From Streptomyces sp. NBC_00569 (GTDB taxonomy: Bacteria; Actinomycetota; Actinomycetes; Streptomycetales; Streptomycetaceae), in NCBI RefSeq assembly GCF_036345255.1, contig NZ_CP107783.1, forward strand, positions 620,001-684,000: 64,000 bases of DNA. Direction: 5' to 3'. A model generated the notes under the pieces. The model had not been told where the DNA came from. It ran no database searches and saw only the letters and a list, made by a program, of their open reading frames with translations. Of the stretch, positions 903-45,745 are shown in pieces. Position numbers and translations under genes: made by a program. Positions within the stretch are counted from its first letter, which is position 1, and every line of letters starts with the position of its first letter.

Positions 903-2054
903 CTACTTGTTCGGGCCCCGGAGGCGGCCGAACGCCTTCGTGAGGGCGGTCAGCGGCGAGCCGTCCAGTCTGACCGAGCCCGGATCGGCCGGCCGGGGCA
1001 CACCCGCGCCACCGGTCACCTCCGCCAGCGCGGCCTGCGCCGCCTCGGCCGCCTCCCGGTACAGGTCACAGGACTTCGTCATGGCCTCCAGCGCCTCCGC
1101 GTACCTGGCGACCATGCCCTGGGCGTGAACCAGCTCCTCGTCCGGGGTCAGCAGGTGCCAGCCCTGACGCAGCCGTGTCAGGGCCCGCTCGGCGTCGGCG
1201 GGCAGCGGCCTGGGCAGCGCGGCGAACTCCTTGATCCTGTCGAGGAGTTCGGTCGGTTCGGAACCGTCCAGGAAGACGCTGCGCACCGTGAGGCGCTCCG
1301 CCTCGTAGCCCGGGACAGGCGGCACCGTGGGCAGGACGACGGCCCCGCCGCGCGGCATCCGCACGCTCAGCTCCCGCTTCATCGCGAAGTCGGCGATCTG
1401 CGCCTGGTCCGGCGTGCCCCGGTGCTCGACCACCCGGTGCCGCAGGCTGGGCGGCAGGAACGCCGAGACAGGCTTCTGCCCCATCGCGTCCGGCGTCATC
1501 GCCTCGTGCACCACGACATGGATGAACCAGCTGTTCCGGGTGCAGTCCCGCAGCCGGTGGCGCAGCTCGTCGTCGTCCTTGGGCAGATGGTTCGCCGCCC
1601 GCAGGCGCACGCCGGGCACCGTGTCGTGATCCCAGTCGACCCGGTCGCTGTCGGGCCAGAACATGGTGGCGGGCGAGGGCCAGTGCGCGTCCCACGCCCG
1701 CTCCGCCTCGGCGGCGAGGACCCAGGTGACGCCCTCGCCCTCCTTGCGGCGGGCCTCGGGGTCGTACGTCGTCAGCTGTGCGCGCACGGTGACGTCGTCG
1801 GCGACGCGCCAGCGGGCCTCGAAGAGGCGGCGGGCCGCCGGACCGAGGTCGGCGGATTCGTCCCGCGGGTGCAGGGTGGTGGAGCGGGCCGCCTCGACGG
1901 GGTCGAGGTCCAGGAAGTCGTCGAGCACCCCGGCCGCCTTGAGGGCGATCAGGTTGCGCCGGACGTCCTGCTCGGGCTCGGGCCCGAGGTGGCGCCCGCG
2001 CCCCAGCCACGCGGTGTCGGGGGCGATGGTCGAGGAGCTGCTGTTCTTGGCCAT
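903..2054 (-). CDS. Hypothetical protein, 383 residues
   Basis: I do not recognise a family. The reading frame is long, strongly GC3-biased and has ordinary Streptomyces composition, so it is very likely a real gene. It is soluble, with no signal peptide or membrane segment. The middle is rich in Trp, Asp and Pro (for example MFWPDSDRVDWDHD), and the C-terminal 90 residues are helical and Ala-rich. No Shine-Dalgarno sequence stands out before the ATG, so the start is tentative. It lies downstream of and on the same strand as the SpoIIE-type phosphatase, 117 bases away, and could be carried on its transcript. Confidence 0.6.
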   Translation of the reverse strand: MAKNSSSSTIAPDTAWLGRGRHLGPEPEQDVRRNLIALKAAGVLDDFLDLDPVEAARSTTLHPRDESADLGPAARRLFEARWRVADDVTVRAQLTTYDPEARRKEGEGVTWVLAAEAERAWDAHWPSPATMFWPDSDRVDWDHDTVPGVRLRAANHLPKDDDELRHRLRDCTRNSWFIHVVVHEAMTPDAMGQKPVSAFLPPSLRHRVVEHRGTPDQAQIADFAMKRELSVRMPRGGAVVLPTVPPVPGYEAERLTVRSVFLDGSEPTELLDRIKEFAALPRPLPADAERALTRLRQGWHLLTPDEELVHAQGMVARYAEALEAMTKSCDLYREAAEAAQAALAEVTGGAGVPRPADPGSVRLDGSPLTALTKAFGRLRGPNK

Positions 2055-42238: not shown

Positions 42239-43033
42239 GTGCACCTGGATCTTTCGGGCCGGACCGCTCTGGTGACGGGCTCCACACAAGGCATCGGAGC
42301 CGCGATCGCGACCGGACTCGCACGCGCCGGCGCGCGGGTCGGGGTCAACGGACGCGACCAGGGCAGGGTGGAGGCGGCCGTCGAGCAGCTCAGAGCCGGC
42401 GTGCCGGACGGTGACTTCGTTCCGGTCGCCGCCGATGTCGGTTCCGAGGAGGGCGCTCGACGCGCCTGGGAAACGTTGCCTGACGTGGACATCCTCATCA
42501 ACAATCTCGGCATCTTCGACGCGAAGAACCCCTTGGACATCACTGACGACGAATGGCGCCGCTACTTCGAGGTGAACGTGCTGGCCGCCGTCCGGCTCAC
42601 GCGGCTGTACCTGCCGCGGATGACCGAACGCGGCCGGGGGCGTGTCCAGTACATCGCGAGCGACTCCGCGGTGGTGATCCCCGCCGAGATGATCCACTAC
42701 GGCATGTCGAAGACCGCTCTGCTCGCGGTCAGCCGCGGCTTCGCCAAGCATGCGGCGGGGACCGGCGTCACCGTGAACTGCGTCATCGCGGGCCCTACGC
42801 ACACCCGTGGCGTCGAAGACTTCGTGTACCAACTCGTCGACCGCGACCTGCCCTGGGACGAGGCGCAGCGGGTCTTCATGCGCGAGTACCGCCCGCAGTC
42901 GCTGTTGCAGCGCCTGATCGAACCCGAGGAGATCGCCAACATGGTGGTGTACCTGAGCTCCGACCTGGCGTCCGCGACCACGGGTGGCGCGCTGCGGGTC
43001 GACGGCGGATACATCGACGCCATCCTCCCGTAA
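42239..43033 (+). CDS. SDR family oxidoreductase
   Basis: A 264-residue short-chain dehydrogenase. Cofactor motif TGSTQGIG (Gly14, Gly18, Gly20), NNLG near residue 90, and the catalytic Tyr154-x-x-x-Lys158 in IHYGMSK; Ser141 is the likely third residue. The RD after the second strand (NGRD) suggests NADP(H). The end has the usual SDLASATTGGALRVDGGYIDA. Substrate unknown. The GTG start has AAGGGA seven bases upstream. It converges with the RiPP P450, so no operon link is implied. Confidence 0.88.
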   Translation: MHLDLSGRTALVTGSTQGIGAAIATGLARAGARVGVNGRDQGRVEAAVEQLRAGVPDGDFVPVAADVGSEEGARRAWETLPDVDILINNLGIFDAKNPLDITDDEWRRYFEVNVLAAVRLTRLYLPRMTERGRGRVQYIASDSAVVIPAEMIHYGMSKTALLAVSRGFAKHAAGTGVTVNCVIAGPTHTRGVEDFVYQLVDRDLPWDEAQRVFMREYRPQSLLQRLIEPEEIANMVVYLSSDLASATTGGALRVDGGYIDAILP

Positions 43034-43155: not shown

Positions 43156-44208
43156 TCAGGCTTTTCGCGTTTTCGTCAGACGTACTTCCTCGACCCCCAG
43201 CAGGCCGAGCAGCGGAACCCTGCCGGTGCGCTGGTCGGGATCAACGACGAGCCCTGAGCTGCGGATCCGGTCCAGCAGAAGTTCGGCGAGCGGCATCACC
43301 AAGTGCCGTCCCCAGCAGCGCTCAGAGGCATGCCCGAAGGGCAGATAGCCCGGCGTGGTGTCGGGGTCTAGTTCGTCCCAGCGCTCGGGCCGGAAGGCGG
43401 GCGCGTCCTCCCACAGCGCCGGGTCGCGGTGCGAGAGCAGCGGAAGCAGCAGGACGTCGTCGTCATCCCGGATCCGGCTGTCGATCGCGGGGTACTCCGG
43501 GGAGGCGTTGCGGAGGATGTTCCACGAGGGCGGCAGCAGTCGCAGGGCCTCGTAGATGATGTTGCGGTTCGGCGTGCTGTCGTCGAAGGGGGAGCCGAGC
43601 CACAGTGCGTTCGCGACGAGGGTCGAGACCGTGAAACACACCGGGGCGGCCGCTCGCCGGTAGACACCCATCGCGTACCTGCGGTCCTGGTAGCCGACGG
43701 CCTCGGCCGCCCGCCCCGCAAGACCGGTGAGGTGGGCGCCGGGTCGCGGCCAGCCGGGCAGCGCGGCGCCTGCGGCGATCACGGACCAGGTCAGCTTGGG
43801 TGTCAGTTCGAGGTTACGGCTCATCAATAACCGCAGACGGAGGGGGTCTTGGCCGAGGATGAGGTCCCTCAGGAGGAGGTGTCCGGTGAGAGGCCAAGGA
43901 CCCGACAGGTCGACGTCCGGCGGCAAGGGGTGCCTCAGCGCCTCGCGGACGTCGTTGCCTGTCGTCCGGGTGACCGAGGAGGCTTCGTTGCGCGAGATCG
44001 AGCGGCCGTGCAGCGGCTTGAACGTCGGCCGCTCGGTCTCCGTCGCCCGGCGCGCGGCGAGGATCCGGTCGGTGACGTCGTGTCCGGCCACTCCGACGGT
44101 GTCGCTCTCGAGCCGGAAGACGTCCCGGCCCAGGTGGTCGTCCAGGAGGGCTGTCAGTCGCGGGGCGAACACGGTGCGGCGCGTGCGCGGCGCGGAGGTG
44201 AGCGACAC
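43156..44208 (-). CDS. Cytochrome P450 of the precursor-P450 (atropopeptide-type) RiPP locus
   Basis: A P450 of about 350 residues, shorter than the usual 400. The heme loop is PFGHASERCWG with Cys298 as axial ligand. The K-helix ExxR is EALR (Glu220-Arg223), and FRPERW precedes the loop. I cannot find a normal I-helix AGxxT motif in the expected region. A TTA Leu codon lies at 43828-43830 (residue 127). The GTG at 44208 with GGAGAA upstream is my start; upstream GTGs would extend it. It lies 107 bases after the precursor stop on the same strand. Expected role: oxidative aryl-aryl and aryl-amine cross-linking of the AWYLWY core. Confidence 0.85.
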   Translation of the reverse strand: MSLTSAPRTRRTVFAPRLTALLDDHLGRDVFRLESDTVGVAGHDVTDRILAARRATETERPTFKPLHGRSISRNEASSVTRTTGNDVREALRHPLPPDVDLSGPWPLTGHLLLRDLILGQDPLRLRLLMSRNLELTPKLTWSVIAAGAALPGWPRPGAHLTGLAGRAAEAVGYQDRRYAMGVYRRAAAPVCFTVSTLVANALWLGSPFDDSTPNRNIIYEALRLLPPSWNILRNASPEYPAIDSRIRDDDDVLLLPLLSHRDPALWEDAPAFRPERWDELDPDTTPGYLPFGHASERCWGRHLVMPLAELLLDRIRSSGLVVDPDQRTGRVPLLGLLGVEEVRLTKTRKA

Positions 44209-44315
44209 GGGTTCTCCGGTGGCGGTGGGGGCGGAACCCCCCGCTGTACGGCAGCCGGCGTCGGGCGCGACGCTCGCTGCCACCGCACAGCGGGGGCGGG
44301 TGGAGGCGTGCCGGA

Positions 44316-44396
44316 TCAGTACCAGAGATACCAGGCGTTCGCCTTCAGGGACTTTCGGGCCGCGGCCTTGTTGCGGATAGCGAAGAGAAGCTTCAT
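44316..44396 (-). CDS. Atropopeptide-type RiPP precursor peptide, core AWYLWY
   Basis: A 26-residue peptide. The leader starts MKLLFAIRNK, is rich in Lys and Arg, and ends KSLKAN; the last six residues are AWYLWY, followed by TGA. Tryptorubin A derives from the hexapeptide AWYIWY, so this core differs only by Leu for Ile. AGGGGG sits seven bases before the ATG, a good ribosome site. One P450 follows on the same strand, the minimal gene set known for atropopeptides. Predicted product: a cross-linked, non-canonically folded hexapeptide after leader removal. What I see: peptide, spacing and P450. What I infer: family and modification. Confidence 0.88.
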   Translation of the reverse strand: MKLLFAIRNKAAARKSLKANAWYLWY

Positions 44397-44791
44397 CACT
44401 GCACCCCCTCTCAGGGCGGACGGAAGACACGCGACGGGTGCCGGGGTGAGCCGGTGAAGATCGCGTGCCGGTGGCGCGGTGAACCTTCCCTGCCGTGATC
44501 ACCGGCCAATCCATCAATTCACCGAAGAGCGTTTCGCATATCCACTTTCAGACGATGCGTTTCCCTGCGTGTGCGGCGCTCTGCGGGAACCGTGTGCGGC
44601 CTCGAAAGGGGGCCGGGTTCGCCTCATGGCCTGGTCGCGGCGCTGCGGGTGAGACCGGGAAAGGGGGTGGCGCAACGCGCCGGATTGCGGAACGCGTCGT
44701 TCCCGCCAAGGCCGGTTTGGCCGGATGGGCAGCCCTCGCCGCCGAGCAGGCAGCGCTCTGAGCTGCGTGAGAAAATGGCGGGAGGCTCTCC
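44397..44791. other. 395-base divergent intergenic region upstream of the RiPP precursor
   Basis: This gap separates the precursor from the DUF5996 gene and should contain the RiPP promoter. A relatively AT-rich stretch (about 44500-44560, including AATTGATGG on the minus strand) is the most promoter-like part, but I could not assign -35/-10 boxes. No additional small gene is convincing. Confidence 0.4.
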
Positions 44792-45745
44792 ATGAGCGAA
44801 CGACTCAACGCATGGCCGTCGCTGGTCTACGAGGACCTGGCGCCCATGGTCGACTACGTGAACCGGCTGGTGCAGGTCGGAGGCAAGTACACCCTGGACG
44901 AGCCCTTCGAGGCCGGCTGGGGAAACATCGTTCTCGATGTCACCCCCCGCGGTCTGCGGACGCCGACTTTTCGGCGCCAGGGAGTCACCTTCGAGGTGCA
45001 CTACCGGCTGCTCGACGGTGACGTGGTCGTCGAGTCCGATCAGGGTTCGGTGACGGTGCCCGTGTCCGACGGATCAGTCGCGGCCTTCTACGCGTCGTTC
45101 TGCGACGCGGTGGCCGACCTCGGTGTGCGCCCGCCGCGCACCTCGCTGATCTGCGAGATCCCTGGTGCGCCACGGCAGTTCGAGGACGATCAGGTCGAAC
45201 GCATCTGGGACGGCGACGCCGCCCGGCTGATGTGGACGGCCTTCGACCTCGCGGCCGGCGGACTCGAAACGTGGCAGGCCCCCTTCCAGGGGCATCGTCC
45301 CCGGGTCGGTGTGATGTGGGGCGGTTTCGATCTGTCCGCCACCCGATACCGGGCACATCCGGCCACCCCGGAGGCCGACCGTCCGGCGTTCATGCAGAAC
45401 GCCGCGCGCGACGAGTACGTATCGGTCGGGTTCACCTTCGGCGACGCCAAGTCGCCGAACGCCGGTATGTACGCCTACATCTGGCCCGAACCGGGCGGTC
45501 TCGAAGGCCGGTCCTGGGGTGTCGACGGCGCGGCCTGGAATCCCGGCGCGGGTCTCGCCCTGCTGCCGTGGTCCACGCTCAGGGAGACGGCCGACCCTCG
45601 CCAGGCCATCGTGGCGTTCGGCGACGCCGTCTACGAGGCGGCCGTGGACACCGCGGGCTGGCCGACCGATGTGATCGGACCTCGCTGCGACGGCTGGCGC
45701 ATGAGTACGACACCACCAGCGGTCCGGGGCAGCCGAGATCAATGA
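44792..45745 (+). CDS. DUF5996 family protein
   Basis: A 317-residue protein of the DUF5996 family, function unknown. Recognisable strings: WPSLVYEDLAPMVDYVNRLVQVGGKY at the start, VTFEVHYRLLDGDV, PFQGHRPRVGVMWGGFDLSATRY, and AYIWPEPGGLEGRSWG with WNPGAGLALLPW toward the end. It is soluble, with no signal peptide. GGGAGG seven bases before the ATG supports the start. It faces away from the RiPP precursor. Confidence 0.85.
   Translation: MSERLNAWPSLVYEDLAPMVDYVNRLVQVGGKYTLDEPFEAGWGNIVLDVTPRGLRTPTFRRQGVTFEVHYRLLDGDVVVESDQGSVTVPVSDGSVAAFYASFCDAVADLGVRPPRTSLICEIPGAPRQFEDDQVERIWDGDAARLMWTAFDLAAGGLETWQAPFQGHRPRVGVMWGGFDLSATRYRAHPATPEADRPAFMQNAARDEYVSVGFTFGDAKSPNAGMYAYIWPEPGGLEGRSWGVDGAAWNPGAGLALLPWSTLRETADPRQAIVAFGDAVYEAAVDTAGWPTDVIGPRCDGWRMSTTPPAVRGSRDQ

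Follow-up and report, generated by a model that had tools for sequence, protein, structure and literature searches.

We found that the window, a stretch of 64,000 nucleotides of Streptomyces DNA, carries on its minus strand a precursor gene and a cytochrome P450 gene of the atropopeptide family, and that the gap between the two genes holds a stem-loop that is conserved in most of the relatives examined, with covariation in relatives (Table 1). We read this as a two-gene atropopeptide locus: the P450 would introduce cross-links between aromatic residues of the core AWYLWY, and the stem-loop would hold the enzyme below the peptide. We assign this reading a probability of about 85%. The locus itself is a real, ordinary member of its family, and other genomes have the same core. 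The only feature lacking in the available parts of two atropopeptide papers (PMC11450843 and PMC12352619), to which all citations of these papers refer, is the stem-loop: a stem between precursor and P450 is not mentioned there, and neither main text contains the word "hairpin" or "terminator". A literature search for intergenic elements of atropopeptide loci gave no match, one for terminators in this family listed a single paper (PMC11373092), and a search for stem-loops in RiPP operons gave no title on point among the matches listed.

Table 1. Features of the atropopeptide locus, in window coordinates
Feature	Position	Strand	Description
Upstream element GATCTTCAC	44454..44462	(-)	~60 bases upstream of the precursor start
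Likely precursor ribosome site GAGGGGG	44404..44410	(-)	From sequence; ends seven bases before ATG
Atropopeptide precursor gene	44316..44396	(-)	26 aa, MKLLFAIRNKAAARKSLKANAWYLWY; ATG 44396 to TGA 44316
Intergenic stem-loop, precursor/P450 gap	44238..44296	(-)	CCCCCGCTGTGCGGTGGC...GCTGCCGTACAGCGGGGG; 18-nt arms 44296-44279 and 44255-44238
Likely P450 ribosome site GGAG	44214..44217	(-)	From sequence; outside the stem
Cytochrome P450, atropopeptide-modifying family	43156..44208	(-)	350 aa, GTG start; E220xxR223, heme Cys298

The precursor gene and its P450

Atropopeptides are a published family of more than 650 clusters, in which a precursor of 10-40 aa consists of a leader and a C-terminal core with two consecutive aromatic residues, the leader contains KSLK or a listed variant, and a Trp is conserved at core position 2 (PMC11450843). 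Translation of the precursor gene gave a leader of residues 1-20, with KSLK at 15-18 and the ending KSLKAN, followed by the core at residues 21-26; with its 26 aa, its leader, its C-terminal core of consecutive aromatics and Trp at core position 2 (A-W-Y-L-W-Y), the peptide has the family's layout, and the nearby P450 belongs to the atropopeptide-modifying clade. The peptide scored 50.2 bits (E 2.2e-13) against NCBIfam NF038372, the model of the tryptorubin family RiPP precursor, above the curated cut-off of 33 bits. A purine-rich stretch similar to its likely ribosome site occupies the same position in 20 aligned upstream regions. The sequence-only reading had described a 26-residue minus-strand ORF with a ribosome site, a leader ending in KSLKAN and a C-terminal AWYLWY, which sequence and translation bear out, and had taken it for a tryptorubin-type precursor beside its P450, on which model score, P450 homologues and tree agree. 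Its claim that precursor and P450 stand together beyond chance holds as well, given the NF038372 score, the occurrence of the pair in 56 non-identical loci and the matches to the model within the genus.

These 56 pairs, the window's copy included (L017), were kept from 62 locus records examined; we dropped two copies of L017 (the window and L001), L002 and L003, which hold other P450s of that genome, L059, whose pair is identical to that of L021 (Streptomyces sp. CB01635), and L046 (KNLK, outside the search pattern). The precursor model matched 16 of the 199 related genomes. Within the genus it matched 43 of 392 at E ≤ 0.001, and 41 of these scored above the cut-off; the own genome is part of both counts. 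Among named genomes, a scan yielded 12 loci, including three from Xanthomonas and two from Dyella.

Upstream of the precursor, an element of the form GATCTTCA was present in 12 of the 20 aligned upstream regions (counted by eye), the window carrying GATCTTCA(C), and this element may belong to a common promoter or operator. A search pattern for the element, whose spacing was wrong, hit two sites with 3 mismatches in other parts of the own genome but not the site in the window. No promoter-like site was found at the locus.

The P450 gene most likely starts at GTG 44208, because its homologues are mostly ~350 aa long and align from this codon. Among 7994 candidates scored, 420 homologues were found at E ≤ 1e-3, the best with 96% identity; the 120 listed range from 336 to 397 aa, and the named ones are mostly from Streptomyces. 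An alignment of 33 sequences shows no variation at C298, E220 or R223. Pfam p450 matches residues 216-312 only, and none of the NCBIfam P450 models scored above its cut-off (best 61 of 525 bits). A truncated or decayed P450 was considered and rejected in view of the same layout in the 33 aligned sequences and the lengths of the 120 listed homologues; since the aligned homologues share layout and length, the short P450 looks normal for its family. The structure model had a moderate mean pLDDT of 63.2 and was not counted as evidence.

Place of the P450 among characterised enzymes

The grouping of the P450 had been set beforehand as a test that could overturn the sequence-only reading, and the tree put it with known precursor-modifying P450s and not apart from them. 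The enzyme lies within a starred clade (100/98) of 19 rows together with the P450s of S. jumonjinensis and S. clavuligerus, while the P450 of S. laurentii falls in the neighbouring starred clade, the join of the two (93/88) being unstarred. The jum cluster of S. jumonjinensis gives amyxirubin B, and lauA with lauB1 gives tryptorubin B (PMC11450843); from the species names, we infer that P0039 is the jum enzyme and P0095 the lau enzyme. P0095 is 75% identical to the window's P450, and the P450s of amyxirubin B clusters, P0039 and P0068, are 79% identical and stand in the same supported clade. The authors caution that P450 phylogeny may be an unreliable predictor of new structures (PMC11450843).

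Like the clusters of tryptorubin A and B (try; lau of S. laurentii), the locus has the precursor plan with KSLK and an adjacent P450; unlike them, it carries Leu at core position 4, with an isomer as the predicted product. The core of LauA, WYIWY, is one residue apart from that of the window (PMC12352619), and the lau cluster has a second P450 (PMC11450843), none being seen beside the window's pair. The S. clavuligerus locus, taken from its name to be that of clavorubin, also has a stem-loop ahead of the P450, but its precursor ends in AWYIWW and not in AWYLWY, and it lies on a plasmid, whose record has 706,856 bases. Loci of the scabrirubin type (Embleya, core TWFIWYS) resemble the window's in the precursor plan and, in L065 and L066, in the stem-loop before the P450, but their P450s are only 59-60% identical to that of the window, and scabrirubin as published carries a single Trp-Trp C-N bond (PMC11450843). 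Biarylitides (P450Blt) likewise combine a small RiPP precursor with a cross-linking P450, but their precursor has five residues and comes from an 18-bp gene (available part of PMC13417212) versus 26 aa here, which sets the locus outside that group.

In S. clavuligerus (L064), a GTG-start frame at ~1299-1382 (+) ends in KSLKGYAWYIWW just before the P450. The precursor is missing from the plasmid collection's S. clavuligerus gene table, which is incomplete but does contain the P450.

Predicted product

A mark of atropopeptides is a set of C-C and C-N aryl cross-links that the P450 makes in a single atropisomer. In the family, the KSLK leader is thought to dock on the P450, which forms the bonds, and a host protease to free the core (PMC11450843). 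Precursor and P450 would be co-transcribed here. By family membership, the translated 26-residue precursor would dock through its KSLK leader on the P450, which would build a cage of the tryptorubin A type through aryl C-C and C-N bonds, and host peptidases would then cut off the leader and perhaps the first Ala too. Varsorubin B1 carries the three bonds of the tryptorubin pattern with a loss of four H, and laurentirubin B four bonds with a loss of six H (PMC11450843). Counting three bonds as four H lost, as in varsorubin B1, AWYLWY with tryptorubin's three bonds would give [M+H]+ 897.393 and be an isomer of tryptorubin A. That Leu for Ile would give an isomer of the tryptorubin core had been anticipated from the sequence, and the residue masses are the same. 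Since the AWYIWY product has an equal mass, mass alone cannot tell the Leu form from tryptorubin A. The locus thereby offers a natural test of whether the change of Ile to Leu at core position 4 alters the tryptorubin-type bridging pattern.

A conserved stem-loop between precursor and P450

The stem-loop of the window has a folding energy (MFE) z of -3.0, with 1 of 200 shuffles as good, and a stem score that none of 100 shuffles reached. For the comparison across loci, the gap was taken to end at the start codon closest to where the P450 start aligned; if no such codon lay nearby, the expected place was used. Among the 56 loci, which are related and not independent, 46 had a best stem that no more than 5 of 100 shuffles equalled, and in 33 no shuffle did so. 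Equal-length control stretches passed far less often, namely 7/56 upstream of the precursor, 6/56 inside the P450 and 11/56 after the P450 stop. The S. clavuligerus locus and two Embleya loci (TWFIWYS core) all had stems that 0/100 shuffles reached, and both Dyella loci carry a stem with different sequences. The stem test failed in 10 of the 56 loci; stems were at chance level in three Xanthomonas loci (L027, L030 and L031) and in L008, and weak in L018, L019 and L023.

In the clade of L010, L011 and L043, which make up the rest of these ten, precursor and P450 are separated by a 49-nt gap without a stem, a natural contrast for the effect of the stem.

We looked for covariation in clade alignments that were picked by eye, each counted structure being taken from one aligned sequence, which favours that structure. 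In alignment A3 (10 loci), six of 16 pairs had changes on both sides and the covariation score was reached by 0/500 shuffles. In A6 (6 loci), 2/500 shuffles reached the covariation score and 21/500 the number of pairs changed on both sides, and in A5 (9 loci) covariation was not beyond shuffles (80/500). Pair counts cover A3, A5 and A6 only, without the window's clade; A2 (13 loci, with the window's clade) and A4 (4 loci) were left out. Covariation supports the stem in two of the three clade alignments, neither of which holds the window's copy.

A T-tract after the stem is absent and the number of terminator-like sites was 0; with none found at the stem, a classical terminator was rejected. 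A microRNA match from Rfam over the stem was taken as chance, its 21 bits comparing with a gathering threshold of 100.

Putative role of the stem-loop

The stem stops 29 nt short of the P450 start and leaves the ribosome site of the P450 free, and it is therefore not read as a lid on this site but either as a partial terminator or as a protective 3' end of the short precursor message. In either role it would provide many peptide substrates per P450; it is thus likely that the stem keeps the peptide in excess over the enzyme. Lantibiotic operons such as nisA-nisB, with a stem between precursor and enzyme genes, are a precedent for such an arrangement. Addition of a ribosome site before svaB gave a 100-fold higher yield (PMC11450843); this gain fits a limiting P450, the stem itself not being addressed by it, and may be due to the vector as much as to the native locus. 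If the stem works as proposed, it explains how a 26-residue substrate is kept in excess over its enzyme in a two-gene cluster, and it offers a handle for raising yields in expression work.

The wider proposition is that atropopeptide loci of Streptomyces, Embleya and Dyella share a fast-changing, structurally conserved stem-loop that sets the substrate-to-enzyme ratio, a general control part so far undescribed. We consider its chances to be even. If true, the stem-loop is a usable landmark for finding the tiny precursor genes of atropopeptides.

Alternative explanations

The stem might have no regulatory role and reflect the folding that is usual in GC-rich intergenic DNA, or a chance repeat. 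Other gaps, defined by a crude gene call, also passed the stem test (6/14 co-directional, 6/13 convergent and 1/13 divergent), and the share among co-directional gaps, like the ten atropopeptide loci that did not pass, speaks for this explanation. Against it stand the 46/56 precursor-P450 gaps that pass, as compared with 6-11/56 matched stretches of the same loci, the changes on both sides of pairs in the relatives of A3, and the stems of other sequences in S. clavuligerus, Embleya and both Dyella loci, and we regard a stem devoid of function as unlikely, albeit the most serious of the competing explanations. Far less credible is that the precursor is a chance small ORF and that the P450 truly begins further upstream. 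The sequence-only reading had pointed to a longer frame of the P450 strand covering the precursor, and this frame exists: it is open from TTG 44517 (43156-44517, 453 aa) and runs across the precursor. With the precursor model match over its cut-off, the pair found in 56 loci and homologous P450s of mostly ~350 aa, we give a start at this TTG next to no weight.

The three-bond tryptorubin cage predicted above also has a competitor. Products of bitryptides and the cihunamide type contain a single Trp-Trp bridge, and a simpler product of this kind, or of the scabrirubin type, is improbable here, slightly more so than a stem without function. AWYLWY, with W2 and W5, also fits the pattern xWxxW, which marks the bitryptide/cihunamide-type subgroup (PMC11450843); ScaB gave single-bridge products even from LauA, WYIWY (PMC12352619), and in the varsorubins one P450 made two bridging patterns from one core (PMC11450843). 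On the other side, the P450 of the window stands in the tree near the S. laurentii enzyme, which is linked to tryptorubin B (PMC11450843), an argument to which the authors' caution on phylogeny applies.

Neighbouring genes and distribution of cores

Comparison of 14 window genes with relatives, from which L027-L031 were omitted, showed that L021 has all 14 and L020 has 13 (three partial), and that L022-L026 share only the P450. Additional tailoring genes were rejected on this ground, and the cluster is taken as two genes; the genes encoding DUF5996 (44792-45745) and an SDR (42239-43033) are taken as neighbours and not as cluster parts.

At core position 4, Ile is the commonest residue (23 of the 56 loci), ahead of Leu (13, the window's copy among them), Phe (9), Gly (6) and His (5). 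AWYLWY had been put forward as a new core, a claim that fell, since the precursor ends in AWYLWY in 13/56 loci, that is, in 12/55 other than the window. The Leu label on the tree needs five gains or losses, at least two of them forced by starred branches; L033 and L034 carry the Leu core within a clade of His cores, apart from the window's clade. A literature search for AWYLWY, which did not extend to supplementary lists, gave no match, and WYLWY occurred only inside words under unrelated titles.

The precursor motif also varies, with KNLK in L046 (1498-1578 (-)) and KSMK in L018 and L019. The published CoreFinder requires a motif from its list (PMC11450843); KNLK and KSMK lie outside this list, so CoreFinder may overlook clusters of this kind. 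Genome G435 carries two separate atropopeptide loci (L046 and L058), with the cores AWYIWY and AWYGWI.
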